Assembly: GCA_033398695.1 (NCBI GenBank)
Contig: CM065801.1
Location: forward strand, 51,408,358 to 51,472,357
Reading direction: 5' to 3'
Length of the DNA: 64,000 nt
DNA from: Orobanche coerulescens
Taxonomy: Eukaryota; Streptophyta; Magnoliopsida; Lamiales; Orobanchaceae
Shown: one piece after another, positions 32 through 46,437 of the stretch
How the letters are laid out: the number at the start of each line of letters is the position of its first letter
Numbering within the stretch: position 1 is the first letter of the stretch
Position numbers and translations under genes: made by a program
Notes under the pieces: model-generated
What the model was told of the DNA's origin: nothing
The model's input: the letters and a program-made list of their open reading frames with translations, nothing else
The model's database searches: none

Positions 32-67
32 AAACAAGTTTCGTCTCGAATCTTAAGATGAAAATAA

Positions 68-4898: not shown

Positions 4899-4910
4899 GC
4901 TCCGATACCA
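4899..4910 (-). promoter_or_regulatory. Primer-binding site (initiator Met tRNA type), copy 1
   Basis: The minus strand reads TGGTATCGGAGC, one base from the standard TGGTATCAGAGC complementary to the 3' end of plant initiator tRNA-Met. It lies 5 bp inside the 5' LTR border. Confidence 0.85.
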
Positions 4911-5394
4911 TATTCTGTAACACCCCGAGATATTCGGAATAATTACAGCGTCGTAAACCCTTTATATAAGAATTTACAAGGCTAAATTACAAGAAATGCT
5001 GAACAATACGAAAGTACCACCAAAAGTTGAGTAATTTAATAATCGGTTTAATCATTCCACAACCATCCATTTATTACAAACTTTTCAAATCATCAAAAGA
5101 ACACACGTACTCGAGTGCTAAAAACCAAACCACAATACCAAAACAATACAACGGATAACATCACTGTGCCCCTTCGTCATCACGCTGGTACTTTGGTTGC
5201 TTCTCTGCTCCTCGGCTACCTGAATATCAAAACAAATGTCCACCCCCACAGGGTTAGAAAAATGATGCTAGTACAAGTATCATAATATATAAAGTCAGAT
5301 ATGCAACAACAATGCATAAAACACGGACTTCCTCTACCGGAATCCAACGATGCGAATCCACAAGATTCCATCAACATAACACAGGGTAATCCAA

Positions 5395-5560
5395 TTATCC
5401 AGCATCCTCAGCATAGATCCCAAGATGATCCCGTCGGACCAACACGAGGTGGAAAACCCGTCCAATGATCCAGCGCCCTCAGCATAGATCCCAAGATGAT
5501 CCCGTCGGACCAACACGAGGTGGACAACTGATCCAGCGCCCTCAGCATATAGATCACATG
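5395..5560 (-). repeat. Tandem repeat in LTR, about 60-bp unit
   Basis: Nearly three copies of a unit containing GATCCCAAGATGATCCCGTC and ACCAACACGAGGTGG. Equivalent arrays lie near 12540-12720 and 20010-20180 in the other LTRs of this family. They lie between the TATA box and the 3' end of the LTR. Confidence 0.8.
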
Positions 5561-6861
5561 ATCCCTTCGGATCATTACAACATATACAATACAACTATGC
5601 ATATACATATGCAAATCGATATGTCCATCAACATGAACAATATATGAATCAATAATTTGAACGACATTATGACAATTCAACTTGGATGATCTCATGTTCA
5701 ACAACATGAATAACAATATGCATGATCAAAATTATCAACATTAAACTAATAGTCAATTACGATACTTGCCTTAGAAAGATGGCAAGAATTAAGTACTTCA
5801 ACGACCGTCAATACGCCCGAAGGTCACCTCCTTCGATCAACTGTGCGCAACGCTCGAACCTTTAAACAAATAGGAAAATAAGGACAACTCAACTTTCATA
5901 ATAGTTTTAGCGAACGGATATCTAACGTCTACTACGGCCGGGTTAACACTCTAAGTTAGCCGGTTCACGGTTCAACTCATTCGACTAACGCTCGGTTGAG
6001 CTAAGGACATATTTCAAGCGAATCAAATGACCATAATGGGGATGAAAGCCGACATCTATGAGTTCAAGGATATTCAAATCATCATAAATTCGCACTTCGA
6101 TTCCTGATTATCAATTCCAATACTTGGTTCGGTCATTTAACACCCTTCAACCGAGTTTTAGATTAACTCATCCCTACAATTTCGTTCTTTCACAAGCTAT
6201 CCTTCTTGCCAAAAATTTTAAGTTCATAACAATTGTTACCCATCAACACCCTTCGTTCCAATTATCAACATGAAGATCATCATGTCCATAAATCATTACA
6301 AGTCATGAATTACGTTTGAATAACACCTCATACTACACATGGATTATTCTAAGTGAAGACCCTTAGAATTCATCTTCTTGAATATCTCCAATGTAGGTGA
6401 TGATATTAACAATACACTGGTATATAAGTGATTCGGAATCGACATCCAAAATGTGCAATAAATCTCAGAAACCATAACTCAGGTTCAACTCAAGAAGACT
6501 CGGTTATAATCTTCTTACTCAGAGAAGTTCTAACATGATTACTTCAGATTTTCCTAAGGTATGGTGTTCAACCTAATAAGTTATCAATAACCTTAATAGT
6601 TCCAGGATAAATGTTCATAATCCGAATAAGAACTCGAATTCTAAGCTCGGTCAGCAACACATACCTTATACGGAAAGAGAATATGAAAACACTTGATGAA
6701 CTCAACGTCGAACACTCGAACACCAATCCCCAAAGCTCCTTGCCTTTAATGAGTATAATCAGAGCTTGATATGAAGAGTTAAGGTCGATAGGGCAACTCT
6801 CTAAGTCCCGGAAATCGGGTATCGGTCAAAGTGAAATCTGAGAAATGAAATGAGGTACTGT

Positions 6862-6871
6862 CCTATTTATA
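6862..6871 (-). promoter_or_regulatory. TATA box of LTR promoter, copy 1
   Basis: The minus strand reads TATAAATAGG. It is placed just after the palindrome array and about 560 bp into the LTR, as expected for the U3 promoter. Confidence 0.7.
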
Positions 6872-6883
6872 AAAAATAACTAT

Positions 6884-7278
6884 TATCGCGCGCTATTTCT
6901 CCTTTTTAGCGTGCGCTAACAGGCTCCCAGCCCACTATTTCTTTCTGTCCTCGGCCTTGCGTACGCTGAATAGCCTTTACGTACGCTAAATACAATAGTT
7001 ACGCTAACACCAAACATAGCATGCGCTAACGGCTTTACGAAAGCTCACTGACCTCACTGTACTAGACTTAGCGTGCGCTAGCATCTCTCTCGTAGTGTGC
7101 GCTAAGCACCGTTGACTCGACTTTTCCAAAACCATCCAGTTTCATCCTGACATGTCACTATCTAAGATTCGTGGTCCGATCTCACTTGCCAACCTGTCTC
7201 AGTCATGCTGACCATACCTAGCGTGCGCTAGTTCACATATTTAGCGTGCGCTAGACTTTAATGTTAGCGTGCGCTAAA
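6884..7278 (-). repeat. Array of TTAGCGTGCGCTAA palindromes in U3, copy 1
   Basis: About twelve copies or variants of TAGCGTGCGCTA, formed by 6-bp inverted arms TTAGCG/CGCTAA around a 2-bp centre, at irregular spacing of roughly 20-60 bp. The array ends just upstream of the TATA box. Degenerate members include GCGTACGCTGAA, ACGTACGCTAAA and GCATGCGCTAAC. Confidence 0.85.
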
Positions 7279-7434
7279 TATACATAAATACTTGTATGAA
7301 TTTACATCTATGAAATCATACACTCTACAATACTGCGTTATGAAGAAGATTATACTCTGATCAATAATACGACATAAGCAATATCACAAAGCTCAAGTAC
7401 AAATAAAATACACGTAAGATATTCGGGTATTACA

Positions 7435-8630: not shown

Positions 8631-8734
8631 GGGTTAGGGCCGATATTTCCTAGCCCATTTAAATCTGGGCTTTTTTGGCCCGGACCGTTTAGCCCGAAGC
8701 CCGTTAGGGCTAGCCCGAAACCCGCTAGGTCTAG

Positions 8735-8770
<36 letters not shown>

Positions 8771-9180: not shown

Positions 9181-9204
9181 ACATTTGAATATTAAGTTTT
9201 GCCA

Positions 9205-9224
9205 TCATCAAAATAGGGGGAATT
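9205..9224 (+). promoter_or_regulatory. Sirevirus-like polypurine tract, copy 1
   Basis: ATCATCAAAATAGGGGGAA directly precedes TGTTAGG. This CATCATCAAAA-GGGGG-TGTTAGG arrangement is characteristic of plant Sirevirus (Ty1/copia) 3' ends. It places an LTR start at 9225 and the element on the plus strand. Confidence 0.7.
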
Positions 9225-10027: not shown

Positions 10028-10690
10028 CTGAGAGAGAAATCCTGAGGTAGATTCGGGAGAGGAAGCCGGGAGCCTAAAAGTATGTATGTATTTGAGCGTC
10101 TTCTCTGAACTCAATGGAGAACCTTTTTTCAGTTGTTGGGGTTCTCTATTTATAGCACTGGGAGATGCTGGGCGATCGCCTCTGCTATATTATAATAAGC
10201 GGGCGATCATCTTTTAGCACATGGGCTGGTCTCCTTAAAGTCCGCAGGAGTTGCTGGCAGCCAGCTGTGCGGTCCAATGAGAAATCTGCACGCGTCTGAG
10301 TCGCTGTCATGGGCGATCCCACCTTGTACCTTTCGGAGGGTCTGTCGGTAGGTGATAAGGTGGTGACAGGCTATGGTCAACGATCTATGAAATGCGGCGC
10401 CTGTCGCGGATCTGCACATGGGCGCTGCTTTGAGATCCAGTCTTCGTGGACTTTGACAGACGAAGGTCTTTGTTTGTGGTACAGGACGGTCGTACTAAGT
10501 TGGGCACCAGAGTCGATCGCTAGGTGCTAAAGGCGATCGCCTTGAGAGTCGATCGCTAGATACTCGAAGACGGACTATTATCTTTGTTTAGGCGAGTTCG
10601 CCATAGCTTGATTGGTTGTGGACTCGGTCGCTCAACCTTGTAGTCGATCGCGTGTCGAGGTGAACAAATCTCGACACAACACTTCCTACA
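10027..10690 (-). repeat. LTR-like promoter fragment with GGCGATCGCC palindromes
   Basis: On the minus strand this segment has a palindrome-word array (GGCGATCGCC, AGTCGATCGCTAG, GTCGATCGCG and variants, about 10168-10652) followed by CTATAAATAG at 10155-10146 and a leader-like stretch. The layout is that of the U3/R part of an LTR whose 3' part was removed at the duplication junction. A candidate LTR start TGTAGGAAGTGTTGTG ends near 10690. No coding region is attached, so family assignment is open. Confidence 0.5.
10146..10155 (-). promoter_or_regulatory. TATA box in LTR-like fragment
   Basis: The minus strand reads CTATAAATAG, located just downstream, in transcription direction, of the GATCGC palindrome array. 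Confidence 0.55.
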
Positions 10691-12065: not shown

Positions 12066-14013
12066 ATATCTGTAACACCCCGAGATATTCGGAATAATTA
12101 CAGCGCTGTAAACCCTTTATATGAGAATTTACAAGGCTAAATTACAAGAAATGCTGATCAATACGAAAGTACCACCAAAGGTTGAGTAATTTAATAACCG
12201 GTTTAATCATTCCACAACCATCCATTTATTACAAACTTTTCCAATCATCAAAAGAACACACGTAGTCGAGTACTAAAAACCAAACCAGAATACCAAACAA
12301 TACAACGGATAACATCACTGTGCCCCTTCGTCATCACGTTGGTACTGTGGTTGCTTCCCCGCTCCTTGGCTACCTGAACATCAAAACAAATGTCCACCCC
12401 CACAGGGGTTAGCAAAACGATGCTAGTACAAGTATCATAATATACAAAGTCAGATATGCAACAACAATGCATAAAACATGGACTTCCTCTACCGGAATCC
12501 AACGATGCGAATCCACAAGATTCTATCAACATAACACAGGGTAATCCAATGATTCAGTGCCCTCAGCATAGATCCCAAGATGATCCCGTCGCACCAACAC
12601 GAGGTGGAAAACCCGTCCAATGATCCAGCGCCCTCAGCATAGATCCCAAGATGATCCCGTCGGAGCAACACGAGGTGGACAACTGATCCAGCGCCCTTAG
12701 CATAGATCACACGATCCCTTCGGATCATTATAACATATACAATACAACTATGCATACACATATGCAAATCGATATGTCCATCAACATGAACAACATATGA
12801 ATCAATAAGCTGAACGACATTATGACAATTCAACTTGGATGATCTCATGTTCAACAACATGAATAACAATATGCATGATCAAAATCATCAACATTAAACC
12901 AATATTCAATTACGATACTTGCCTTAGAAAGATGGCAAGAATTAAATACTTCAACGACCGTCAATACGCCCGAAGGTCGCCTCCTTCGATCAACTGTTTG
13001 CAATGCTCGAACCTTTAAACAAATAGAAAAATAACGATAACTCAACTTTCGTAACAATTTTAGCGAACGGAAATCTAACGTCTACTACGGCCGGGTTAAC
13101 ACTCTAATTTAGCCGGTTCACGGTTCAACTCATTCGATGAACACTCGGTCGAGCTAAGGACATATTTCAAGCGAATTAAATGACCATAACGGGGATGAAA
13201 GTCGACATCTACGAGTTCAAGGATATTCAAATCATTATAAATTCGCACTTCAATTCTTGATTATCAATCCCAATACTTGGTTCGGTTATTTAGCACACTT
13301 CAACCGAGTTTTAGATTAACTCATCCCTATAATTTCATTTTTTTCACAAGCTATCCTTCTTGCCAAAGTTTTTAAGTTCATAACAATTGTTACCCATCAA
13401 CACCCTTCGTTCCAATCATCAACATGAAGATCATTATGTCCAGAAATAATTACAAGTCATGAATTACGTTTGAAGAACACCTCATACTACACATGAATTA
13501 TTCTTAGCGAAGACCCTTAGAATTCATCTTCTTGAATATCCCCAATCTAGGTGATGATATTAACGATACACTGGTATATAAGTGATTCAGAATCAACATC
13601 CAAAATGTGCAACAAATCTCAAAAATCATAACCTAGGTTCAACTCAAAAAGGCTCGGTTATAATCTTCTTACTCAGAGAAGTTCTAACATGATTACTTGA
13701 TTTTCCTAAGGTATGGTGTTCAACATAATAATTTATCAATAACCTTAATAGTTCTAGGAGAAATGTTTATAATCCGAATAAGAACACGAATTCTAAGATC
13801 GGACAGCAACACATACCTTATACGGAAAGAAAAGATGAAAACACTTAATGAACTCAATGTCGAACGCTCGAACACTAATCCCCAAAGCTCCTTGCCTTCA
13901 ATGAGTATAATCAGAGGTTTATATGAATGGTTAAGGTCGAGAGGGCAACTCTCTAAGTCTCAAAAATTGGGTATCGGGCAAAGTGAAATCTGAGAAATGA
14001 AATGAGATATTGT

Positions 14014-14023
14014 CCTATTTATA
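14014..14023 (-). promoter_or_regulatory. TATA box of 3' LTR, copy 2
   Basis: The minus strand reads TATAAATAGG, at the same place as in the 5' LTRs. In a 3' LTR it could drive read-out transcription leftward into ORF-X. Confidence 0.65.
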
Positions 14024-14033
14024 GAAAATGACT

Positions 14034-14459
14034 ATTAGAGTGCGCTATTTCTCCTTTTTAGTGTGCCCTAACGGGCACCCAGTCCACTGTTTCTTTCTGT
14101 CCTCGGCCTTGCGTATGCTGAATAGCCTTTACGTATGCTAAATACAACAGTTAGCGTACGCTAACACCAAACATAGCGTGCGCTAACGGCTTTACGAAAG
14201 CTCACTGACCTCACTGTACTAGACTTGGCGTGTGCTAGCATCTCTCTCGTAGCGTGCGCTAAGCACCGTTGACTCAACTTTTCCAAAAGCCGTCCTGGTT
14301 CATCCCGGCATGTCACTATCCAAGATCCGTGATCCGATCTCACCTACCAACATGTGTCAGTCATGCTGACCATACCTAGCGTGCGCTAAGTTTCAACTTT
14401 AGCGTGCGCTAGTTCACATATTTAGCGTACGCAAGACATCAATGTTAGCGTGCACTAAA
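14034..14459 (-). repeat. TTAGCGTGCGCTAA palindrome array, copy 2 3' LTR
   Basis: About fourteen members, including a block with TAGCGTGCGCTAAG and TTTAGCGTGCGCTAG that is shortened in the 5' LTRs. Array length therefore varies between LTRs of one family. Confidence 0.85.
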
Positions 14460-14620
14460 TATACATAAATACTTGTATGAATTTACATCTATGAAATCAT
14501 ACACTCTACAATACTGGGTTATGAGATACGGAAGATTATACTCAGATCAATAATACGACATAAGCAATATCACAAGGTTCAAGTACAGATAAAATACACG
14601 TCATGTATTCGGGTATTACA

Positions 14621-14632
14621 TACTCCCCCTCT
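14621..14632 (-). promoter_or_regulatory. Polypurine tract of chromovirus copy 2
   Basis: The minus strand reads AGAGGGGGAGTA adjoining the 3' LTR at 14620. Confidence 0.85.
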
Positions 14633-14670
14633 AAACAGAAGTTTCGTCTCGAATCTTAAGATGAAAATAA

Positions 14671-17575
14671 TTTCGGATATCTAGCCTTCATACTATCTTC
14701 CGACTCTCAAGTGGCTTCTTCGACTCCATTACGCGACCATTGAACTTTAACCAATGGTATTGGTTTATTACTCAATTGTTTGACCCGACTCTCGAGTATC
14801 TTGATTGGTTTCTCTTCGAACGTGCCATCATTAGTCACTTCAATCTCGCCAAATTCGATGATATGACTGGGATCCGGTACATATTTCCGTAATTGGGATA
14901 CGTGGAACACATGATGAACATGACTCGGTGATGGCGGTAAGGCCAACCTGTACGCCAACTCCCCAACTCTTTCAAGGATCTCGAATGGTCCGATATTTCT
15001 CGGACTCAGCTTTCCTTTCTTCCCAAAACGGAAAATCCCCCGAGTAGGAGAAACCTTTAAGAGCACGTGGTCCCCAATTTCAAACTCTAACGAGCGACGA
15101 CGCACGTCTGCATAAGACTTTTGTCGACTCTGGGCAGTCAACAGCCTTTCACAATCAGAGCTACCTTCTCTTGAGCCTGTACTATCAACTCTGGTTCCAT
15201 CCCGATCAAGTCAGACGAATCATCCCAACACAGGGATGATCTGCATCTTCTCCCGTAGAACGCTTCAAATGGTGCCATCTTAATGGCAGCATGCCAACTA
15301 TTGTTGTAGGTGAATTCAATCAACGGAAAATGAACCTCCCAATCAGTCGACCAATATAAGGCATAATCTCTTAGCATATCTTCTACTGTCTGAATAGTCG
15401 TTTCGGACTGTCCGTCAGTCTGAGGATGATAAGTTGTGCTAAAGTTCAGCTCGGTTCCCAAGGATTTATGAACTGCCTTCCAAAACTATGACACAAAGCG
15501 ACCATCCCGATCCGAAATAATGGTCTTCGGCGTACCATGCAATCGGACTATCTCCGCAATAAAAACTTGTGCCAATTTTTCTGGTCCCCAAGTATCCTTA
15601 ATACCCATAAAATGAGCCGACTTGGTTAGACAATCAACTATCACCCAAATCATATTCATCCCTATTCTGGTCCTTGGCATATTGGTGATAAAGTCCGTCG
15701 ATATATCCTCCCACTTTCATTCAGGAATCGGAAGTAGCTTCAACATTCCGGCAGGTCGCTGATATCCAATCTTAACTTGTTGACATGTTAAACACTTCGA
15801 GATGTATTCTGCTACGTCCTTCTTCATATTTCCCCACCAGAAATTCTGCTTTAGATCCTTATACGTCTTACTGGTGCCCGGATGAATAGAATAGGGTGCA
15901 CTGTGAGCTTCCTTCATGATCGTCTGTTTCAAAGCATCGTCATCGGGAACGCAAAGTCAACTCTGGAACCTCAGAACTCCATCATCATATATTACAAATC
16001 CTGGGGCCTTCCCCTTGTCCATTTCATCATGTAACCGAATAATCAGAGAATCATCCAACTACTTAGATTTGATTTCGTCAATTAACGACGAAGTTAATTC
16101 CATCACACACAGTTTCCCTTGGACTCCTTGCGACCATACTTCAATTCCTTCGCAAATCAATTCTCGTTGAATGCTGGACTGGTACGTAAGTGTTTCCAAC
16201 ATTCGACTTGAAATAGTTTTGCGGCTTAGTGCTTCAGCTACCACATTCGCTTTGTCTGGATGATAAAGAATTTCCAGGTCATAATATTTGATCAATTCCA
16301 GCCATCTCCTCTGTCTCATGTTTAATTCCTTCTGACTGAAAATATACTTGAGACTCTTGTGATCTGTAAAGATCTGAAAATGAGTGTCGTACAAATAATG
16401 TCGCCAAATCTTCAGGTCAAAGGTAACGGTTGCTAACTCTAAATCATGTGTCGGGTAGTTAACCTAATATGGTTTCAACTGTCGAGAGGCATAAGTAATC
16501 ACCTTATCCTTCTGCATCAACACGCAACCCAAACCCTGATTTGAAGCATCGTCAGAAACCACGAACCCATCAGTTCCGTCTGGTAGTGCTAATATTGGCG
16601 CCGTTGCCAGTCCTCTCTTAAGTTCATCAAAACTAGTCTGACATTTATCGTCCCACACGAATTTCTGAGCCTTCTGCAATAGCTGAGTAAGCGGACAAGC
16701 AATTTTGGAAAATCGTTCCACAAAACGACGATAATACCCAGCAAGTCCTAAGAAACTTCGGACTTCCTTCATGTTCTTAGGAGATTCCCACTCCAAGATT
16801 GCCTCAACTTTCTTCGGGTCTACTTGTACTCCGTCGGTTGATATCACATGCCCAAGGAACATTACTTCCTTCATCCAGAACTCGCATTTGTAAAGTTTCG
16901 CATAAAGTTGTTCAGGTCTCAAAGTATTCAAAACAATTCGCAAATGTTCTGCATGCTCTTCTGGATCCTTCGAATAGATCAAGATGTCGTAGATGAAAAC
17001 GACCACGAATTTATCCAAGTATTCTAAGAATACCCGATTCATCAATTGCATAAACACATCCGGAGCATTAGTAAGACCAAATGGCATCACCACAAACTCA
17101 TAGTACCCGTACCGGGATCTAAAAACGGATTTCGGTATATCAGATTACTTAATCCTTAACTGATGGTATCCTGATCTCAAGTCGATCTTCGAGAATATCA
17201 TCGCCCCCTGCAGTTGATCAAATAAATCATCGATCCGAGGCAATGGGTATTTATTCTTGATCGTCACCTTGTTTAGCTCCCTGTAATCAATACACAATCA
17301 GAGGGATCCATCTTTCTTTCGAATAAAAAGAACGGGCGCACCCCAAGGAGAAACACTAGGTTGAATGTAACCCTTCTGCAACAATTCCTCAAGATGTTTC
17401 TTTAACTCATGCATCTCGGTTGGCGCCATACGGTATGGTGCTCTGGAAATAGGTGCGGCTCTTGGTTCCAATTCGATATATAAATCTACAGCTCTACGTG
17501 GAGGTATCCAGGTAGTTTATCAGGGAATATGTCTGAGAATTCGTTCACAACTGGAATAGATTAGAGCTCTACTCC
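14671..17575 (-). pseudogene. pol: Chromovirus pol, copy 2 (broken)
   Basis: Less damaged than copy 1. The RT C-terminal half and RNase H start form one open piece at 16464-17093 (209 aa) with [19 protein letters not shown] (canonical FIDDILIYS, so one catalytic Asp is replaced by Tyr) and VFLGHVIS or similar landmarks. RNase H has [14 protein letters not shown]. The integrase HHCC domain is at 15717-15932, the core at 15486-15680 and 15138-15461 with D, D and E (TDGQSETTIQ), and the SH3-like plus chromodomain end at 14707-15141. The RT N-terminal half (17100-17570) has frameshifts. The RT change is shared with copy 1, so it predates the duplication. Confidence 0.92.
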
Positions 17576-19294
17576 TTATTCCTTCTTCATGGCATAACAC
17601 CAAAACCCGGTACAACCCTGTTTCAGCAATTTAATCGCTTTCATAGCTTTGATCACTTTCCCTGAGCTTTCTGGTCTCCATCCTTCGAATAAATGTTCAG
17701 ATTTGTCATCAATAATAATCGAGATAACTCTCTTCTGATAATTCAAAATAGCCCCATAACGATTGAGCAAATCGTCTCCAAGAATTAAATCGTCACCATG
17801 GATGTCGACCACAATAAGATTTGACGGCCAATTTCTCCCTTCTATGGACACAGCAAAATTTCTAGCTTGTAGATTTCCCATAATTCTCTCTCCACTCGGC
17901 AGACTCACAACATAAGGTTCACAATTATGCAAACACGAAATTTTCAAACGATTAACACGATTCAATGATATGAAAGAATGCGTAGCTCTTGAATCGAATA
18001 AGACACTAACTGGTTGCAAAAGAATCTGAATCGTACCTGATGCAACAGCAGTATTTTGATCATCTGACCTCCTCATCTCATAGAGGCGCGGAGGAACGGA
18101 CCCAGCACTGGATGCTTCTCTTTTCCCAAAATTTTGCTGTTGAAGACCACTCTGCTGTGTCAGGTTCACAATCGTCTCTTTCGGAACTTGTGCTGAAGTG
18201 CGAGCTCCAAATGATCTAGTCACATTTCTGCAAAAATTCGCACGATGCCCTTCTTGCCCACATTCAAAACAGGTCACAGAAGGAGCGGAGCAATCACGTC
18301 GAACATTCCCTGGTCGTCCACAGTTATAACACTTCTTCGCTGAATCGGTAACTGTTGATGCCGTTCTGAACTTCTTTCCGCCTCGATAAGGATACGAAGG
18401 CCTCTTGGATGAATGGAATGAGAACTGGCCCTTGCAGGGCCCACTACTCTTGCTCTTGGTGAAGTTGCCAGACACTTTCTGCTTCTTTGCTTCTGCAAAT
18501 TTCTCCACTGCTGTCTCTTTCATTTCGTAAGCCAGGGCTTTGTCCTGATACTGTCGGAGAGTAGTACATTCAAATCCCAACATATATTGCTGGATCTCCG
18601 GCTTCATCCGCATGTCGAAGTGAAAAGTTTTTTCTGCCTCGGTTCTGACCAGATGTCGCACAAAGGTCAGCTGGTGATTAAAAGTCTTAATCATATTTGT
18701 CACAAATGCCTCCAGATTCTGCGGTGAGAAAAACTCTTGGACTCTAGTCTCTCTAACTGGACAAGGACAATACTGTGATTCCATCATTAATTTAAATTCC
18801 GTTCAGTCAGCATTATGATCCTCAGGTTAAATGGCTTCCCACCAGTCGAAAGCTTCCCCAATCAGAAAATACTGAGTGATCGAAACTTTTCGGTCATCGG
18901 AACAATTAATTCCCGCAAATATCTTCTCCAGTTCTTTCAGCCAGTTGTCCCATGTAGGCATCTTTGAAGAATCTTCAAATTTCGGTGGGTGTAGTTTGAC
19001 CACTTATGAAAGCCACTTGTCTCCCCGATTGTCTTCGTTGCGCTGTTGGCCCATCGTCACTTGCGTGCGGTCAACCACCTAAGCAAATTGGGTCATTTGA
19101 GTGACCAATTATTGAAGCACTCCCGGCATGTTAGGATTTGCATCTTCCTCCATAGTTCGTGCTCGATCATTATTTACCGATTCCTATTGTCCGCCAGAAC
19201 GGGAATCAGCTCGATTAGCTGACAAATCTGGGGTAGACAACGAATCTTCATGTCTCGCATTACCACGTTTGCATCCACGACCTCCTCTCAACAT
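17576..19294 (-). pseudogene. gag: Chromovirus gag-protease, copy 2 (broken)
   Basis: The open piece 17576-18787 (403 aa) covers the Gag C-terminal part, two zinc knuckles (CYNCGRPGNVRRDC with H replaced by N; CFECGQEGHRANFC intact) and the protease with DSRATHSF. The original start is probably the ATG ending at 19294. The 500 bp between 18788 and 19294 are Gag-like but carry several stops of the TAA/TAG/TGA type expected from C-to-T change at CAA, CAG or CGA codons. Confidence 0.9.
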
Positions 19295-19516
19295 ACTGTA
19301 AACACAAATACTCAATATCCAGAGTAAAATCTTCTAAAGCTCATCAATATCCACAAAACACGAAATAATTAAAATGGTAGTATATGATATTAGGAAACTT
19401 ACAACCACGGTCCACATGACGATGCTGGTTGTACAGTGATGTTATACGCGACCGATAAATCAAACGACATAAACAGACTCAACTAAACCCAACTGCCAAG
19501 ATATCCATGAATCTTA

Positions 19517-19528
19517 GCTCCGATACCA
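19517..19528 (-). promoter_or_regulatory. Primer-binding site, chromovirus copy 2
   Basis: The minus strand reads TGGTATCGGAGC, complementary to initiator tRNA-Met except for one base, 5 bp from the LTR. Confidence 0.85.
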
Positions 19529-21473
19529 TATTCTGTAACACCCCGAGATATTCTAATAATTACAGCGTCGTAAACCCTTTATATAAGAATTTACAAGGCT
19601 AAATTACAAGAAATGCTGAACAATACGAAAGTACCACCAAAAGTTGAGTAATTTAATAATCGGTTTAATCATTCCACAACCATCCATTTATTACAAACTT
19701 TTCAAATCATCAAAAGAACACACGTACTCGAGTGCTAAAAACCAAACCACAATACCAAAACAATACAACGGATAACATCACTGTGCCCCTTCGTCATCAC
19801 GCTGGTACTTTGGTTGCTTCTCTGCTCCTCGGCTACCTGAATATCAAAACAAATGTCCACCCCCACAGGGTTAGAAAAATGATGCTAGTACAAGTATCAT
19901 AATATATAAAGTCAGATATGCAACAACAATGCATAAAACACGGACTTCCTCTACCGGAATCCAACGATGCGAATCCACAAGATTCCATCAACATAACACA
20001 GGGTAATCCAATTATCCAGCATCCTCAGCATAGATCCCAAGATGATCCCGTCGGACCAACACGAGGTGGAAAACCCGTCCAATGATCCAGCGCCCTCGGA
20101 TAGATCCCAAGATGATCCCGCGGACCAACACGAGGTGGACAATCGATCCAGCGCCTCAAGATAGATCACATGATCCCTTCGGATCATTTCATCATATTAA
20201 AGACAACTATGCATATACATATGCAAATCGATATGTCCATCAACATGAACAATATATGAATCAATAATTTGAACGACATTATGACAATTTAACTTGGATG
20301 ATCTCATGTTCAACAACATGAATAACAATATGCATGATCAAAATTATCAACATTAAACTAATAGTCAATTACGATACTTGCCTTAGAAAGATGGCAAGAA
20401 TTAAGTACTTCAACGACCGTCAATACGCCCGAAGGTCACCTCCTTCGATCAATCAGGCGCAACGCTCGAACCTTTAAACAAATAGGAAAATAAGGACAAC
20501 TCAACTTTCATAATAGTTTTAGCGAACGGATATCTAACGTCTACTACGGCCGGGTTAACACTCTAAGTTAGCCGGTTCACGGTTCAACTCATTCGACTAA
20601 CGCTCGGTTGAGCTAAGGACATATTTCAAGCGAATCAAATGACCATAATGGGGATGAAAGCCGACATCTATGAGTTCAAGGATATTCAAATCATCATAAA
20701 TTCGCACTTCGATTCCTGATTATCAATTCCAATACTTGGTTCGGTCATTTAACACCCTTCAACCGAGTTTTAGATTAACTCATCCCTACAATTTCGTTCT
20801 TTCACAAGCTATCCTTCTTGCCAAAAATTTTAAGTTCATAACAATTGTTATCCATCAACACCCTTCGTTCCAATTATCAACATGAAGATCATCATGTCCA
20901 GAAATCATTACAAGTCATGAATTACGTTTGAATAACACCTCATACTACACATGGATTATTCTAAGTGAAGACCCTTAGAATTCATCTTCTTGAATATCTC
21001 CAATGTAGGTGATGATATTAACAATACACTGGTATATAAGTGATTCGGAATCGACATCCAAAATGTGCAACAAATCTCAGAAACCATAACTTAGGTTCAA
21101 CTCAAGAAGACTCGGTTATAATCTTCTTACTCAGAGAAGTTCTAACATGATTACTTCAGATTTTCCTAAGGTATGGTGTTCAACCTAATAAGTTATCAAT
21201 AACCTTAATAGTTCCAGGATAAATGTTCATAATCCGAATAAGAACTCGAATTCTAAGCTCGGTCAGCAACACATACCTTATACGGAAAGAGAATATGAAA
21301 ACACTTGATGAACTCAACGTCGAACACTCGAACACCAATCCCCAAAGCTCCTTGCCTTTAATGAGTATAATCAGAGCTTGATATGAAGAGTTAAGGTCGA
21401 TAGGGCAACTCTCTAAGTCCCGGAAATCGGGTATCGGTCAAAGTGAAATCTGAGAAATGAAATGAGGTACTGC

Positions 21474-21483
21474 CCTATTTATA
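21474..21483 (-). promoter_or_regulatory. TATA box of 5' LTR, copy 2
   Basis: The minus strand reads TATAAATAGG, about 570 bp into the LTR and just downstream of the palindrome array. It is the expected start region of the genomic transcript. Confidence 0.7.
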
Positions 21484-21493
21484 AAAAATAACT

Positions 21494-21890
21494 ATTATCA
21501 CGCGCTATTTCTCCTTTTTAGCGTGCGCTAACAGGCTCCCAGCCCACTATTTCTTTCTGTCCTCGGCCTTGCGTACGCTGAATAGCCTTTACGTACGCTA
21601 AATACAATAGTTACGCTAACACCAAACATAGCATGCGCTAACGGCTTTACGAAAGCTCACTGACCTCACTGTACTAGACTTAGCGTGCGCTAGCATCTCT
21701 CTCGTAGTGTGCGCTAAGCACCGTTGACTCGACTTTTCCAAAACCATCCAGTTTCATCCTGACATGTCACTATCTAAGATTCGTGGTCCGATCTCACTTG
21801 CCAACCTGTCTCAGTCATGCTGACCATACCTAGCGTGCGCTAGTTCACATATTTAGCGTGCGCTAGACTTTAATGTTAGCGTGCGCTAAA
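21494..21890 (-). repeat. TTAGCGTGCGCTAA palindrome array, copy 2 5' LTR
   Basis: Same arrangement as 6884-7278, with only one or two base differences (for example CACGCGC in place of CGCGCGC at the array edge). Confidence 0.85.
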
Positions 21891-22046
21891 TATACATAAA
21901 TACTTGTATGAATTTACATCTATGAAATCATACACTCTACAATACTGCGTTATGAAGAAGATTATACTCTGATCAATAATACGACATAAGCAATATCACA
22001 AAGTTCAAGTACAAATAAAATACACGTAAGATATTCGGGTATTACA

Positions 22047-37943: not shown

Positions 37944-38512
37944 TGTAACACCCCCAGGATATCCGAGGTATATTACAGCGCCGTGAATCCCTATATGGGA
38001 CCCACCAGGCTGAACAGCATCATACACAACGACTCACAGAAACGATAAAATAACACCACGTCATAAAGACGCAAAACAGGACAATCCACCCGGTTCAACC
38101 GGTCAATGTAACATCATCATCCAACACAACATAAACACAACAATACAATCTGGACGAACAAGAACTCTTAAGTACTCGAGTACAGCTATTAGTTCAAAAG
38201 CCATAAAAGATGAAAAGACAAAAAGACATTAAGACGTCTCTTATGCACAATCATCACGCATGGCCATCATCCGTATCGTCCAGTCACCGCTCGTCCCGAT
38301 GAACTCCGACTGAAATTCATAAAACGAATTTCCCCAAAACGGGTCCCCAGAGGGGTTAGCAATTACGCTAGTACAAGTAACCAGATGAACAACTTACATC
38401 TTACACATATAGTAATGCATGCAATAAAGAAAACCGTTTGAAAGCACTCATTTCCGGAAATGCCAAAATCAAATCACATTTGTAAAATTCACCACAATTA
38501 ACCGTCGATCCA

Positions 38513-38632
38513 CACCTCCGTGGACCCCTACCGAGACCCCGTCGGATCTAACCCGTAGTGGTTAAAAGCAAAGCTCGTCGATCCACACCTCCGTGGACCC
38601 CTACCGAGACCCCGTCGAGTCTAACCCGTAGT
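38513..38632 (-). repeat. Tandem repeat in nested chromovirus 3' LTR
   Basis: Two copies of a unit with GTCGATCCACACCTCCGTGG and ACCCCTACCGAGACCCCGTCG, separated by a short spacer. Same unit at 45123-45246. The position matches the tandem repeat of the other chromovirus family. Confidence 0.8.
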
Positions 38633-39248
38633 GAGCATACACACACATACAATTTCTCATACAAAACTACTATGCCAAGATTGTAAGTTCATAAGGATAC
38701 TTGCCTCGATTAATTAGACGATGACACGAACGGAACGGAAGAGTTGAACACGACCGCAAGGAACCGGCGGAAATGAACCTAACGATTTGAATAGCACAAT
38801 CACAACCACTTCTAAACGATTATGGAAATGGAATACTCCCGGAAACCCGCCTACGATTCATGTATATTCGTATACAAACAACAACGAGGGCGGACCACAA
38901 CCGAACCCTCTCGATTCCGTAAAAATCACGAAATATACCATGAATCCGTAGGAAACTAAGAATACCAACAAGAATAATCATATTCATCATGAATCCATCA
39001 ACGAAACGGAAAGAATCGGACAAAACCCCAAAATCCCCAATTATCCAAAAAGGTAGGGTTTCAAGAGATATTACCTTGAGTGATTCAAGTATTAAGATCC
39101 GTAGAACACGTTAGATTGATTATCCGAGCCTCACAACCGAAAAGAAATGATGAAAATCGACCGGATGAAGAACTCTCCTCTATATCTTCTCTCTCGCGAC
39201 GCAAAGGGAAAAGTGGGGAAGGAAATGAGCTTCACGCTCAAAACAACA

Positions 39249-39259
39249 CATTTATAGTG
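39249..39259 (-). promoter_or_regulatory. TATA box, nested chromovirus 3' LTR
   Basis: The minus strand reads CACTATAAATG, just downstream of the palindrome array. Confidence 0.6.
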
Positions 39260-39267
39260 TAACACAC

Positions 39268-39485
39268 CGAACCTATCGGCCACGGCTATCGCCGATAGCC
39301 CAACCGATACCCATACTAATGCCGCGGAGAGTCTATCGACCCCCTATCTACCGAAAGGCTCCCGGAAGTTCGAAGGTGAAGAAATTTACCTATCGGCCAG
39401 CCTATCGGCCGATAGGCCCAACCGATACCCATACGGAATGCCGGCAGAGAGTCTATCGACCCCCTATCGGCCGAAAGGCTCTGGA
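39268..39485 (-). repeat. CCTATCGGCCGATAGG palindrome array, 3' LTR
   Basis: Words of the perfect 16-bp palindrome CCTATCGGCCGATAGG, half-sites CTATCGGCC and GTCTATCGACCCCC, in a duplicated block of about 125 bp. Several members lost bases relative to the 5' LTR. Confidence 0.8.
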
Positions 39486-39795
39486 AGTGCTCGCCAAAAT
39501 CGAAACGACCATAACTCTCTCGTCCGGACTCGATTGACTCACCGCTTGAACCATTGGAAAGCTAACTCGATGTTATATAATATTGCAAAGATTTATAATT
39601 TTTGGAGTCACCAAAAATTAATGGTGATCTAACAAAGTCGAACTCATGTGAGGAAAATTGAAACAACGAACAATAACGAGAATACAATTCAACAATTGAC
39701 AGGAAGGACATACTGAAAGATACATGAGGGTCACTATGACCGAGAAATATACCAAAAGTGAAAATACAAGGGAAAGAAAAATACCGGATATTACA

Positions 39796-39809
39796 TTCTA
39801 CCCTCTAAA
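39796..39809 (-). promoter_or_regulatory. Polypurine tract, nested chromovirus
   Basis: The minus strand reads TTTTAGAGGGTAGAA before the 3' LTR. It appears shortened relative to the AGAGGGGGAGTA of the related family. Confidence 0.7.
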
Positions 39810-39839
39810 AATAAGTTTCGTCCGAAACTTAAGAAACAA

Positions 39840-42755
39840 ACAACTCCGGTACCTAGACGCATGCTATCCTCGGTTTCCCAAGTTGCCTCCTCGACACCGT
39901 GTCTCGACCACCGAACTTTGACCAAAGGGATGGTCTTATGCCTCTCGTTTCTCACGATGCTCCAAAATCTTCAAAGGACGCTCCTCAAAAGTAATATCTT
40001 CAAGAATATCAACCTCGCCATAATCGATGACGTGACTAGGATCCTAACATATTTCCTCAATCGGGAAACATGAAAAATGCTATGAACATGACTCAAGGCC
40101 GAGGTAACGCCAAACGGTACGCTAATTCACCGACTCGCCGAGAATCTCAAAGGGTCCAATAAATCTCGCTCACTTTCCTTTCTTCCCAAAACGAAACTCC
40201 CTTCGTCGGCGACACCTTTAGCAAAACGTGGTCTCCCACCTCGAATTCCAAAGGTCGACGACGGACGTCGGCATATGACTTCGTCGACTGCAGGCGATCA
40301 ACATCCGTTCTCGAATTAACTCTATCTTCCGCCTCGTCTCTAAAAGCGACATCCGGCTCGGTCCGACTAAATCGGACGCCTCATTCCAACAAATCGGCGA
40401 TCGACATCGCCGCCCATAAAGTGCCTTGTACGGTGCCATCCGAATCGACGTGTGCCAACTATTGTTGTACGTGAATTCGATCAATGGCAAATGCTCCTCC
40501 CAGTCACTACTCCAATCGAGGGCACAAGCACGCAACATGTCCTCGAATGTCTGGATAGTGCGTTCGTCCATCCGATCGGGATGAAAAGAGGTACTCAAAC
40601 GCAACCGGTACCTAACGCCTTATGCACCGCCGAAGTGCGATACAAAGCGGCCGTCACGATCCGAAACAATAGACTTGAGTACCGTGAAGTCTCACGATCT
40701 GCGCAATAAACACACGAGCTAACTTCTCCGCCCCAAGTGTCCTTGATGCCCGGAAAATGTGCCGACTTGGTCGGGCGATCAACAATCACCCATACCATAT
40801 TCATGCCCGACCTCGATCTCGGCAAACTCGTAACGAAATCCATCGATATATCTTCCCATTTCCATTCCGAGCGAAGTGACTGCAATAACCAGCCGGTCGG
40901 CCGATGCTCGATTTTGACACTTGGCAAGTCAAACATCTCGCCACAAAGCGTGCGACTTCCTCCTTCATATCATTCCACCGAAGTTCCTCCTCGTGTCCTT
41001 GTACATCTTACTCGTACTCAGATGAACGGAATAAGGTGTAGCATGGGCCTCCCGTAAAATACTCGCCTCAACTCGAGTCGTTCGGCACACAAAGCCGACT
41101 GAATCTTAAAACGCCATCCTCGTGAATCACAAACCAGAGACTTTCCTTTAAGAACGTTCTCTCGGATTTGAGTAATCATCGGATCCTCTAATTGCTTGAT
41201 TTAATTTCATCGATCAAAGGCACGAAATTTCCAAGGCACAAAGTTGCCCGACAGATCCAGAAGCAAAACCTCAACATCTAACCCGATCAAAGCCCGCCGA
41301 AGCTCGATCGAGGCGTAAGGACCTCAAGCGTTCGCAACGCAATCGGTTTCCGACTCAAGGCGTCGGCCACGACATTCGCCTTACCGGATGATAAAGGATT
41401 TCGAGGTCATAATCTTTAATCAACTCTAACCACCTCCTCTGCCTCATATTCAACTCTCGGAGTAAATATGTACTTGAGACTTTTATGATCGGTAAAAATC
41501 GACATGCGAGCCGAAAAGATAGTGACGCCAAATCTTGAGTGCAAAGACAACCGCCGCTAACTCCAAATCGTGAGTAGGGTAGTTAAGCTCATACGGCCTC
41601 AATCGTCTCGACGCATAGGCAATGGTCTTGCCGTCTTTGCATCAATACGCACCCAAGACCACGACCAAGCGTCGCTAAAACGGCGAAACCCTCGTTGCCA
41701 CATGGCAATGCCAAAACCGGGTCAAGTCAAACGCTTCTTCACTCCTCAAAACTCGATCGCCTCTCATCGGTCCAGACGAACTTCTCGGATTTTGGAGCAA
41801 TCAGGTAAGTGGTCGAGCTAGTTTTGAGAAACCCTCGGCGAACCTACGGTAGTAGCCACCAAACCCAAGAAACTACGGACCTCCTTCACATTTGTGGGCG
41901 ATGCCCAATCCAACACCGCCTCAATTTTCTCGGATCTACTCGAACTCCTCATTTGAAATCACGTGGCCCAAAACATCACTTCTTTCGGCCAACTCACATT
42001 TCGAGAACTTCGCATAGAGTTGCTCGGTCCTCAAAATGTCTAACACTACCCGCAAATGATGGGCATGCTCTTCCTCGTTCCTCGAATAAATAAGAATATC
42101 GTCAATGAAGACGACGACACACCTATCCAAATACTCGATAAAGACTTTGTTCATCAACTGCATGAACACCGCCGGCGCGTTAGTTAACCCGAAAGGCATA
42201 ACTACAAATTCATAATGTCCGTATCTCGTCCGAAAAGCTGTTTTCGGCACGTCGGACTCCCTCACCCGGAGCTGATAGTACCCCGATCTCAAATCAATCT
42301 TCGAGAATACCGCAGCTCCCTGCAATTGGTCGAACAAGTCGTCAATCCTCGGCAAAGGATACTTGTTCTTGATGGTCACCTTGTTTAGTTCGCGATAGTC
42401 GATACACAAACGTAGCGAACCATCCTTCTTCCGCACAAACAGGACCGGTGCGCCCCAAGGCGAGGCGCTCGGTCGAACATACCCCGACTCAAGAAGCTCA
42501 CCCAACTGCTTCTTCAACTCGGACATCTCTGAAGGTGCCATGCGATACGGCGCCTTCGAAATAGGAGCCGCGCCCGGTTCTAACTCTATAGCAAACTCAA
42601 CCTCACGGTCCGGTGGCAATCCCGGTAATTCGTCAGGAAATACATCAGGAAACTCATTAACGACTGAAATCGACGAAAGCTCGACTCCACCATCCTCCGC
42701 CTTTAAGGCATAGCACCAATAACCAGTACACCCCTTTCGCAGAGACTCATCGCCT
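39840..42755 (-). pseudogene. pol: Nested chromovirus pol (broken)
   Basis: The RT piece at 41936-42619 (227 aa) is well preserved, with residues [50 protein letters not shown] and the intact FIDDILIYS catalytic box. RNase H and connection (41200-41930) are heavily frameshifted. The integrase core is at 40595-40936 (VWVIVDRPTKSAHF) and 40218-40604 (FTYNNSWHTSI, ALYGRRCRSPICW). The C-terminal chromodomain region 39840-40217 is scrambled by deletions. The preserved RT means this copy is biochemically closer to function than the 12071-22046 element. Confidence 0.9.
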
Positions 42756-44349
42756 TCAAGGCATTAATAACGATTTCTGTTTCCCTCTTTCGCCCGCGAA
42801 AGAGTGCTCTTTGCAGTCCTCGGCTAACATAGTGATGATCCTCGTGCGGTAGTTCATGATCGCACCATGCCGCTCGAGCCAATCATCACCAAGAATCAAA
42901 TCCTCACCCTCGATACTCACAACAATAAGATTAGAGGGCCAAGTCCTCTCACAAATAAGTACAGAGCAGTCTCGAACCTCCTGATCACCAACGATCCTAT
43001 CGCCGCTAGGAAGCTTAACGATGAAGGGTTCACAAGGCGTCAAACGGTCGAGACTCAAACGACGCACACAATCCGAGAGATATGAACGAATGCGTAGCAC
43101 CTAATCAAAAGCACACCGACAGATGAGAAAGAATATAAACGGTACTGCCGCCAAGGTAGCCGCTGGATCATCGGCTCTCCGCATCTCATAGACACGCGGA
43201 TGGGCGGAGCCCACCGGAAGCTCCCCTTAGAGGGCTGACCCGACCTCTCCCGACTAGCACTCGGCGGAGGCGAGGAGCAAACGATCCCCGATTCACACTT
43301 GGTTCCCTAGGCTGGAATGGAAGCCCGGGCGCCAAGAATTTTCTCCTCTCAAGGCCAGACGGCTTTGTGGCCCGGGCCACACTGATTACACGTCGAGAAA
43401 GGGCTCAAACAAGTACGACCGATGTGGCCGTCGACCACAATTGAAACACTTCACATCACGAAAAGGAGCACCGTAGTTCCACGAGGACCCCTGCGGAACG
43501 AGGTGGACCACCGCCGGCGGAAGTTAGCGATTGGGATCTCTGACCCCCACTCTTGTGGCCGAAAAGTTCCCAATGGACTTACGCTTCTTACTCTCGCGGG
43601 CCGCCTCACTCGCCGTCACCGACATATCATAAGCAAGGGCCCTACTCGATAATCCTTCAATGTAGTGCATACGAGCCCCGACATATAGTCCCGGATCGGC
43701 AACTTCATCCGTCTGAGAAATGGAAAATCTTGTCACTCTCCTCGACAACTTGGGTCTTCACATAACCCAACTCTTTGTTAAAATCAAGAATGGCTTGAGC
43801 TACGGGATATCCCGTGGTTGAGCATCATAAAAGCATGTACCCGAGCACATCTGATCGCCACGGCAATATTCATCTCCATCAACTCTTGAAACTCACCACG
43901 AAGCGGCATGGTCTTTGGGCCCAACGGCCTCCCACCAATCCGTAGCGTCCCGGTGAGAAAATATTGAGCAATAGGGACTCTACGTTCCTCGGGACGATTA
44001 GTGGCAACGAAGACCTTAGATATCTCCTTAATCCACCCTTCCCAGCCCATCGGGTCCGAAGCTCCCAAACCGAGGAGGATGCATCTTGATGACATCTTGA
44101 AGCCAACGATCCGCTCGCCCGATTAGCGTGGGCTCGATCCGGGTTGAACCGCCTGGCTATCGCGCCATTTGGTTCACCATTTGTTGCATTACGGCCGCGA
44201 TACCAAGATCGGCACGCTCGAGAAGAAGCATGGCTATGACGGTCGCCGCTGCCGGCTCAAGACTGTGACGTGGCCGCTCCACCGGCTGCCCCACGTCCCC
44301 GGCCGCGTCCACGACCACGACCGCGACCACGACCTCTTCCAGCATCCAT
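42756..44349 (-). pseudogene. gag: Nested chromovirus gag-protease (broken)
   Basis: The protease-side piece at 42756-43100 contains LPSGDRIVGDQEVRD, WPSNLIVVSIEGEDLILGDDW and ERHGAIMNY, parallel to the other family's residues. The zinc-knuckle region is near 43400-43460 (CFNCG visible). The capsid part at 43500-44100 is in fragments. The probable start is the ATG ending at 44349, whose product begins MDAGRG followed by a basic RGRG-rich stretch as in related Gags. Confidence 0.85.
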
Positions 44350-44564
44350 ACTAGAGTTAAATAAGTAGCAAAAGCCATACGAGGATCAGTACAAGAAAAG
44401 AACAATCACAAGTCGAGAATCAAGGGTACGATACAAGGAATTAATGAACAGAGGAAAGAAAACTTACGGACCGGTAGTAGGAATCATGGCGGCGTGACGA
44501 TGATGTGCAAAACCAAACACCACAAGACCCAATAAACCAACAAGCCTAGGTATCCATAAACCTA

Positions 44565-44577
44565 GAGCTCGATACCA
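44565..44577 (-). promoter_or_regulatory. Primer-binding site, nested chromovirus
   Basis: The minus strand reads TGGTATCGAGCTC. Compared with the standard TGGTATCAGAGCTC, one A is missing, again at a CAG. Confidence 0.8.
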
Positions 44578-45122
44578 TTTTCTTAACACCCCGGGATATC
44601 CGAGGTATATTACAGCCGTGAATCCCTATATGGGACCCACCAGTGAAAGATCATACACAACGACTCACGAACGATAAAATAACACCACGTCATAAAGACG
44701 CAAAACAGACAATCCACCGGTTCAACGGCCAATGTAACATCATCATCCAACACAACATAAACACAACAATACAATGGGACGAACAAGAACTCTTAAGTAC
44801 TCGAGTACACTATTAGTTCAAAAGCCATAAAAGATGAAAAGACAAAAAGACATTAAGACGTCTCTTATGCACAATCATCACGCATGGCCATCATCCGTAT
44901 CTTGGTCCAGTAGCCGCTCGTCGATGAACGACTGAAATTCATAAAACGAATTTCCCCAAAACGGGTCCCAGAGGGGTTAGCAATTACGCTAGTACAAGTA
45001 ACGGATGAACAACTTACATCTTACACATATAGTAATGCATGCAATAAAGAAAACCGTTTGAAAGCACTCATTTCCGGAAATGCCAAAATCAAATCACATT
45101 TGTAAAATTCACCACAATTAAC

Positions 45123-45246
45123 CGTCGATCCACACCTCCGTGGACCCCTACCGAGACCCCGTCGGATCTAACCCGTAGTGGTTAAAAGCAAAGCTCGTCG
45201 ATCCACACCTCCGTGGACCCCTACCGAGACCCCGTCGAGTCTAACC
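45123..45246 (-). repeat. Tandem repeat in nested chromovirus 5' LTR
   Basis: Two copies of the GATCCACACCTCCGTGGACC unit, as at 38513-38632. Confidence 0.8.
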
Positions 45247-45874
45247 CGTAGTGAGCATACACACACATACAATTTCTCATACAAAACTACTATGCCAAGA
45301 TTGTAAGTTCATAAGGATACTTGCCTCGATTAATTAGACGATGACACGAATGGAACGGAAGAGTTGAACACGACCGCAAGGAACCGGCGGAAATGAACCT
45401 AACGATTTGAATAGCACAATCACAACCACTTCTAAACGATTATGGAAATGGAATACTCCCGGAAACCCGCCTACGATTCATGTATATTCGTATACAAACA
45501 ACAACGAGGGCGGACCACAACCGAACCCTCTCGATTCCGTAAAAATCACGAAATATACCATGAATCCGTAGGGAAACTAAGAATACCAACAAGAATAATC
45601 ATATTCATCATGAATCCATCAACGAAACGGAAAGAATCGGACAAAACCCCAAAATCCCCAATTATCCAAAAAGGTAGGGTTTCAAGAGATATTACCTTGA
45701 GTGATTCAAGTATTAAGATCCGTAGAACACGCGTTAGATTGATTATCCGAGCCTCACAACCGAAAAGAAATGATGAAAATCGACCCGGATGAAGAACTCT
45801 CCCCCTCTATATCTTCTCTCTCGCGACGCAGTGGAAAAGTGGGGAAGGAAATGAGCTTCACGCTCAAAACAACA

Positions 45875-45885
45875 CATTTATAGTG
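45875..45885 (-). promoter_or_regulatory. TATA box, nested chromovirus 5' LTR
   Basis: The minus strand reads CACTATAAATG about 550 bp into the LTR. Confidence 0.65.
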
Positions 45886-45892
45886 TAACACA

Positions 45893-46120
45893 GCCGAACC
45901 TATCGGCCAGTCTATCGGCCGATAGGCCCAACCGATACCCATACTAATGCCGCAGAGAGTCTATCGACCCCCCCTATCGGCCGAAAGGCTCCTGGAAGTT
46001 CGAAGGTGAAGAAATTTACCTATCGGCCAGCCTATCGGCCGATAGGCCCAACCGATACCCATACAGAATGCCGGCAGTAGAGTCTATCGACCCCCCCTAT
46101 CGGCCGAAAGGCTCCTGGAA
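45893..46120 (-). repeat. CCTATCGGCCGATAGG palindrome array, 5' LTR
   Basis: Two blocks of about 125 bp, each with CTATCGGCCAG, CCTATCGGCCGATAGGC, CCAACCGATACCCATA, GTCTATCGACCCCCC and CTATCGGCCGAAAGG. It ends next to the TATA box. Confidence 0.85.
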
Positions 46121-46437
46121 GTGCTCGGCCAAAAACTGAAACGACCATAACTCTCTCGTCCGGACTCCGATTGACTCACCGTTTGAACCATTGGAAAGCT
46201 AACTCGATGTTATATAATATTGCAAAGATTTATAATTTTTGGAGTCACCAAAAATTAATGGTGATCTAACAAAGTCGAACTCATGTGAGGAAAATTGAAA
46301 CAACGAACAATAACGAGAATACAATTCAACAATTGACAGGAAGGACATACTGAAAGATACATGAGGGTCACTATGACCGAGAAATATACCAAAAGTGAAA
46401 ATACAAGGGAAAGAAAAATACCGGATATTACAGCAAG

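Follow-up and report, generated by a model that had tools for sequence, protein, structure and literature searches.

Within a 64,000-nucleotide stretch of Orobanche coerulescens DNA (C1:51408358-51472357, hereafter the window), the promoters of retroelements carry arrays of short dyad-symmetric words in their long terminal repeats (LTRs), often directly ahead of the TATA box, and from one array to the next the word differs while the layout is kept. The arrays belong to two Tekay-type elements, fam1 and fam2, to an LTR-like promoter fragment, X, and to a 5' LTR at the right edge of the window that is classed as Tekay-like by its LTR ends and a sequence resembling a primer-binding site (PBS). 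The same arrangement recurs on a genomic scale, and the keeping of the layout under a changed word may reflect a code for protein binding that evolves rapidly. It is our view, held with somewhat better than even confidence, that the arrays are sites for a homodimeric DNA-binding factor, housed in upstream cassettes of Tekay-type LTRs and subject to rapid turnover of the word. Such arrays make testable how the promoters of mobile elements alter a binding code without loss of function.

Repeated dyad words in the window and in the genome

Palindromic words were found where a preliminary description of this DNA had placed them, and the pattern is larger than was claimed there, with 28 arrays in 230 kb of surveyed sequence. 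Exact matches to one word of each type were counted in the 3.646-Gb assembly, the control being the same letters read backwards. The 14-bp fam1 word TTAGCGTGCGCTAA occurs 228,904 times (3 backwards), the right-edge word GTTACGGTCGTAAC 4,760 times (2 backwards), the fam2 word CCTATCGGCCGATAGG at 12,532 places (0 backwards) and the X word AGGCGATCGCCT at 8,188 places (10 backwards); the latter two are perfect palindromes that match on both strands, and each place was counted once. Because these counts hugely exceed those of the backwards words, the arrays are taken to be real, and the fam1 word alone presents a vast load of sites to any factor of the host or the element.

Shuffling of the arrays leads to the same result. 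A statistic for repeated dyad words, allowing at most one mismatched pair and at most two mismatches, was reached by none of 300 shuffles in each of seven regions; with strictly perfect dyads the fam1 regions R1a and R1c score 0 because their centre is TG. A scan of the window found six places outside the arrays with at least four copies, several of them simple repeats, and three copies in R2a, X and the right-edge array. Comparison of simple palindrome density with shuffled sequence, a check proposed in the preliminary description, proved weak: R1c, R2a and X were reached by 27, 43 and 44 of 500 shuffles, a 224-bp Copia LTR also scored high (8 of 500), and the statistic was dropped.

For the survey outside the window, 10-kb stretches of contig C1 were sampled at 23 positions (in 2-Mb steps between 2 and 40 Mb, and also at 45, 85 and 125 Mb), and 3,151 segments of 420 bp in them were scored by the number of copies of one dyad 12-mer, with mirror-symmetric 12-mers as control. 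At least five copies were present in 132 segments for dyad words and in 7 for mirror words, none of the latter above five, and block-wise dinucleotide shuffles gave none in 30,590. Seeds of at least five copies define the 28 arrays, which lie in 14 of the 23 loci and whose seed words fall into eight classes under a 3-mismatch rule; naive scaling from this one contig would extrapolate to about 440,000 arrays genome-wide. A chance origin is ruled out by the dyad-word shuffles, the backwards counts, the mirror control and the block shuffles.

Spacing of the words and distance to the TATA box

Copies within the arrays are preferentially spaced at 23 bp, a distance found 83 times among 228 spacings of the surveyed arrays, followed by 21 bp with 20 occurrences and 24 bp with 13, and then by 18, 20 and 50-53 bp. 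Outside the fam1-type words (n=125) 23 bp occurs 26 times and 21 bp 19 times. The fam1 array in LTR_B has spacings of 23, 50, 20, 23, 22, 52, 24, 127, 23, 23 and 23 bp, with 7 of the 11 within 23±1 bp, as many as are reached by 29 of 200,000 random placements, and LTR_A and LTR_C each have three of nine spacings at 23 bp and one at 24 bp. In LTR_B and at the right edge this period is made up of a 14-bp word and a 9-bp spacer. Mean identity over 24 arrays was 0.30 for spacers, near chance, and 0.86 for words, the words having been chosen by similarity and the spacers not; the right-edge spacers are somewhat alike (0.46).

The TATA box of fam1, fam2 and X is preceded by palindromes on the minus strand, with gaps of 11 bp in fam1, 16 bp between GGCGATCGCC and TATAAATA in X, and 15-16 bp, as worked out from positions, between the last half-site of fam2 and TATAAATG. 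The earlier statement that palindromes abut the TATA box stands for these three, with TATAAATG in place of TATAAATA in fam2, and does not extend to the right edge. Within their LTRs the fam1 arrays extend from 157 to 552 bp and from 162 to 586 bp. In the survey, an outward TATA lies within 150 bp of the array end in 16 of 28 arrays, as compared to 943 of 5,000 random placements, and a TATA lies 10-17 bp past the last copy in 7 of 28, as compared to 407 of 20,000 (2.0%; binomial 1e-6).

Word turnover between homologous flanks

Turnover of the word with retention of the layout, as proposed in the preliminary description, is borne out by loci elsewhere in the genome, and two modes can be seen when their sequences are compared. 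The first is a gradual change of words along a homologous array. Locus L030 is homologous to fam1, with 83% identity over 925 bp of the R-U5 (repeat and unique 5') part of the LTR and 63% across the outer array together with the outer U3 (unique 3') region, and it shares the fam1 spacing skeleton with different words, TTAGCG-YR-CGCTAA in fam1 as opposed to TTAACGTACGTTAA-type and mixed words in L030; the arrays of L022, L028 and L036 likewise carry TTAACGTACGTTAA-type or mixed words on a similar skeleton. The second is replacement of a whole cassette between homologous flanks. The outer-U3 block of fam2 recurs in L026 at 92% identity and in L035 at 86%, yet the adjoining arrays carry other words, and fam2 and L026 resemble each other once more at the TATA box and where R begins. 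One exact 27-bp upstream block, present at 16,067 places genome-wide, served as an anchor, and in 20 of 100 listed places (close pairs avoided, classed by eye) it is followed by three palindromic cassettes, with GACCGTGTC/GACACGGTC words in 17 loci, the fam2 word in 2 and GTGCCGCGGCAC in 1. Identical flanks with different cassettes amount to natural swap experiments.

These comparisons also bear on the relatedness of the LTRs, which had been described as four unrelated ones. Blocks of fam2-type and edge-type U3 stand side by side in L035, and the Ty3 pol of fam1 is related to that of fam2, leaving only X apart.

A proposed protein-binding code and its rivals

A putative dimeric protein acting in activation or anti-silencing would find many copies of a symmetric-dimer site, repeated at a preferred 23 bp (18-21 bp in the case of other words) with unrelated sequence between them, and selection would keep the arrangement in place. 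The copy nearest the TATA box often lies 10-17 bp ahead of it, a position from which a factor bound there would aid promoter assembly or shield the promoter. Elements may switch factor, or co-evolve with it, and the word would then change either gradually or by cassette replacement, perhaps as an escape from sequence-directed silencing. Sensitivity of the words to methylation is plausible, because both arms of the seed word contain a CpG in 24 of 28 arrays. A wider proposal, possible and advanced with considerable reserve, is that of a word-agnostic promoter code in which plant Ty3 elements (and, from the literature, Ty1) converge on TATA-locked periodic dyad arrays, each word having its own fast-evolving homodimeric factor and cassettes being swapped in a silencing arms race.

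Among the mechanisms suggested earlier, homodimeric sites fit best and hairpins fit poorly for fam1. It is unlikely that the U3 array acts by folding at the 3' end of element RNA, where it is present in the 3' LTR and would serve packaging, 3'-end processing or host small-RNA silencing. Folding of the sense strand relative to shuffles gives z of -4.8 and -2.6 for the 5' and 3' LTRs of fam2, -3.0 for X and -3.6 for the right edge (plus strand), 21 of 174 and 15 of 175 110-nt segments of the fam2 LTRs fall below -40 kcal/mol, and a hairpin role for palindromes was published for maize Sireviruses (2016 paper, as related in PMC10760457). However, z for the fam1 sense strand is only -1.7 and -2.7; one and none of 241 and 244 segments, respectively, fall below -40, and that one lies outside the array. 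A lone fam1 word forms a stem of at most 5 bp because of its 2-nt centre; furthermore, RNA folding leaves the TATA phasing and the 23-bp period unexplained. The preferred period on unrelated spacers, the short range of TATA distances and the restriction of symmetry to the reverse complement thus argue for a DNA-level code of protein dimers over RNA hairpins.

A purely mutational origin, in which arrays grow by slippage and duplication, template switching from arm to arm and deamination of both strands restore the symmetry, and the word is under no selection, seems improbable to us. It would account for the fam2 array being a 120-bp tandem duplicate, for a 23-bp unit gained or lost between fam1 LTRs, for the fam1 copies lying mostly in one orientation of an asymmetric centre and for one fam2 palindrome altered in both arms after insertion. 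It does not account for words and period that persist while spacers are near chance identity, for a TATA distance that is similar across words, or for dyad words forming arrays when mirror words hardly do; moreover, no compensatory pair was noticed by eye where homologous fam1 words of LTR_B and LTR_C diverge. The altered palindrome (39284-39300) lies in the 3' LTR and differs from its 5' LTR counterpart in both arms while remaining symmetric (GGCTATCG-C-CGATAGCC), as expected from a template-switch event after insertion.

It had been suggested that dyad symmetry itself is under selection, a proposition that is weakly supported, modestly at best. Flanking pairs not used to choose the copies were compared with within-array shuffles, and fam1-type words exceed these in complementarity at ±7 (88 of 5,000 reach it) and ±8 (63 of 5,000), with z of 2.2-2.4 at these two distances and no excess at ±9, ±10 and ±12 and ±11 in between (221 of 5,000). 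Across-array shuffles, which ignore relatedness, gave stronger values (z 4.6 and 2.9), and at ±7 they reach the observed value in 0 of 2,000 cases for fam1, 0 of 2,000 for GTGCCGCGGCAC and 1,731 of 2,000 for TTACGGCCGTAA; only flanking pairs were used for the TTACGTACGTAA set, the core pairs being biased because two symmetric query words were used. Counted across the genome beside the core TAGCGTGCGCTA, C-G is in 1.4-fold excess when the T column is taken as reference. What remains of the suggestion is the formation of arrays by dyad and hardly by mirror words, together with the small excess at ±7 and ±8. Compensatory change was set aside as a proof of symmetry selection, the TAGCGTGCGCTA counts not being clean.

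A number of observations weigh against homodimeric sites maintained by selection. Around TAGCGTGCGCTA the odds ratio is 4.1 for complementary C..G and still 3.0 for non-complementary C..T, flanking pairs of TTACGGCCGTAA show no excess over within-array shuffles, and single, scattered excesses of z 1.8-2.2 occur at other distances and in other word sets. On the sense strand most fam1 words have CA as their two central bases, and flipped copies are few (in L028, L021 and L036). This suggests duplication as their source, or else an asymmetric reader; the copies look like direct duplicates, not freely oriented dimer sites. Arrays have decayed after insertion at least as much as their surroundings (8.9% versus 6.9%, and 5.8% versus 1.6%, a single remodelled palindrome making up part of the second difference). 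The right-edge array is without a canonical TATA box, with only TTAAAA 12 bp past the last copy, and 12 of the 28 surveyed arrays have no outward TATA within 150 bp, while 2 of the 16 with one have it in TA repeats. The 28 arrays are partly dependent, through LTR pairs, shared families and neighbours that are possibly one split array, and a Tekay-like LTR start lies within 1.2 kb of only 14 of them (a figure with no random control). Finally, a Tekay-type LTR from another plant (L002, below) contains no array, and arrays are therefore not universal.

It is most unlikely that the words matter through the CpG in each arm, as methylation targets or reader platforms, since the frequency of CpG in both arms (24 of 28 arrays versus 164 of 678 dyads, or 24%, outside arrays) and the CpG density of the five window arrays (6.1-7.8 per 100 bp versus 4.3 for the window) are set against an observed/expected ratio of 1.0-1.3, close to the window's 1.04, and a methylation platform needs no 12-16-bp word, preferred period or TATA distance.

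Elements of the window

Table 1. Positions of elements, arrays and promoter motifs in the window (plant DNA, C1:51408358-51472357).
Feature	Position	Strand	Details
fam1 full-length Ty3/Tekay-type element	12071..22046	-	5' LTR 19534-22046, 3' LTR 12071-14620; 5-bp target duplication GATAT
fam1 LTR_A	4916..7434	-	copy of LTR_C via 14.6-kb tandem duplication; part of second fam1 copy
fam1 array, LTR_A	6883..7277	-	10 copies of TTAGCGTGCGCTAA (at most 5 mismatches)
TATAAATA, LTR_A	6864..6871	-	11 bp downstream of last palindrome
fam1 array, LTR_B	14035..14458	-	12 copies of TTAGCGTGCGCTAA (at most 5 mismatches)
TATAAATA, LTR_B	14016..14023	-	11 bp from array
fam1 array, LTR_C	21495..21889	-	10 copies of TTAGCGTGCGCTAA (at most 5 mismatches)
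TATAAATA, LTR_C	21476..21483	-	11 bp from array
fam2 Ty3/Tekay-type element	37944..46432	-	5' LTR to 46432, 3' LTR 37944-39795; target duplication CTTGC
fam2 array, 3' LTR	39268..39488	-	CCTATCGGCCGATAGG and half-sites on duplicated unit of about 120 bp
fam2 array, 5' LTR	45893..46120	-	
fam2 outer-U3 block	46136..46327	-	matches L026 (92%) and, in part, L035 (86%), both with other array words
X, LTR-like promoter fragment	10168..10652	-	GGCGATCGCC / CGATCG words; TATAAATA at 10147-10154, gap 16 bp
Right-edge 5' LTR, Tekay-like ends	62675..64000	+	runs on to 64606 in L038, then PBS-like TGGTATCGGAGC
Right-edge array	63199..63281	+	4 copies, GTTACGGTCGTAAC / CTTACGGCCGTAAT / GTTATGGCCATAAT / GTTATGGTCCTAAC; spacings 23, 23, 23

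The fam1 copy counts in Table 1 were made after dropping one weaker row per LTR. The pol proteins of fam1 and fam2 match Pfam RVT_1, and those of fam1 also RVP_2 and SH3_Tf2-1, identifying a Ty3-type pol, and internal pieces of the two elements are 70-71% identical in DNA. Both elements show the Tekay chromovirus traits of a Ty3-type pol, a PBS beside the 5' LTR and a 5-bp target duplication; the PBS-like sequence is TGGTATCG, which we presume to match a primer. Pfam Chromo, sought behind the integrase, had no match in the fam1 and fam2 proteins, and the integrase tail is presumably of Tekay type. No frame of at least 150 aa beyond the pol-type frames was found in the internal parts of these decayed copies, shorter frames not having been studied. 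For X, the TATA box and words are present near 10037-10700 and LTR ends were not found. Tekay elements are reported to make up 9.7-12.7% of diploid Orobanche genomes (PMC4381496).

A tandem segmental duplication of 14.6 kb (10037-24636 and 1-10036, 98.8% identical) has its junction near 10027-10037, beside X. Fam2 sits nested inside what is likely a Copia element (pol 48289-51369, plus strand), whose LTRs are likely the 224-bp repeats at 36024-36247 and 51900-52123 (99.1% identical). A Scarecrow-like 3 GRAS gene (28576-29955) encodes a protein 94% identical to that of Orobanche gracilis.

Comparison with other genomes and known systems

No relatives were found among the viral contigs scanned. 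Nine contigs of plant-like or other eukaryotic Ty3 retroelements (L001-L009) are filed under bacterial genomes, including Streptomyces, Mycobacterium and Trichormus, and an array scan of these found no word with at least five copies, the best being four in L007. Parts of L002, L001, L004, L006 and L007 were read closely for LTRs, and L002 alone has a Tekay-type U3 that can be followed between the LTR start and a TATA-like site. At the contig end of L007 (5820-5943), from a Trichormus metagenome-assembled genome, dense palindromes (GGCATTCATGCATGAATGCC, TCACGCATGA) lie behind a Ty3 pol and may form an array belonging to an element of a fern, the host of this Trichormus being, we assume, Azolla.

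The nearest analogue of the evolutionary behaviour appears to be VANC and the motif arrays of VANDAL elements, which are described as dense, located in non-coding DNA of mobile elements, changing together and differing between related families, as are the arrays reported here (PMC5735166, PMC10398659). The evolution of VANC motifs has been attributed to co-evolution with the binding protein and escape from RNA-directed DNA methylation (Hosaka 2017, PMC5735166; Sasaki 2023, PMC10398659). In contrast to the LTRs of the window, VANDALs are DNA transposons that encode the binding protein and whose named motifs are not palindromic, and no such gene is seen among the fam1 and fam2 frames of at least 150 aa; for Tekay elements of sunflower, an additional encoded protein is reported that resembles double-stranded-RNA-binding ones (PMC12844716).

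For the structure of the arrays, the closest known counterpart is found in the Sireviruses, whose RM boxes are palindromic repeated motifs upstream of the TATA box that were called Sirevirus-specific (Bousios et al. 2010, PMC2829016). In both systems the word differs between families. The CGG-CCG core of the RM boxes is present in the fam2 and right-edge words and absent in those of fam1 and X; at least eight palindromic copies in the LTR upstream of the TATA box, as expected of RM boxes, are found in fam1 (10-12, at 11 bp), while fam2, X and the right edge have fewer full dyads. The RM cluster is a CpG island, as compared to the CpG density and ratio given above. In maize Sireviruses the palindrome-rich cis region is reported as a small-RNA hot spot (Bousios 2016, via PMC10760457 and PMC5311732), a likeness in its fast-evolving palindrome clusters in an LTR regulatory region and a difference in that these are Copia elements, and maize Ty3 elements are generally described as without a structure peak (PMC10760457). 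In the literature covered, from which subscription journals were largely absent, no description of such arrays in Ty3/Tekay LTRs was found. RM boxes occur in Ty1/copia elements, whereas fam1 and fam2 are Ty3, and the accessible accounts of RM boxes describe neither a fixed copy period nor a cassette swap between homologous flanks, both of which are seen here. Thus, a pattern regarded as specific to Sireviruses extends to Ty3 elements, in which it comes with a preferred period, a TATA distance and cassette replacement.
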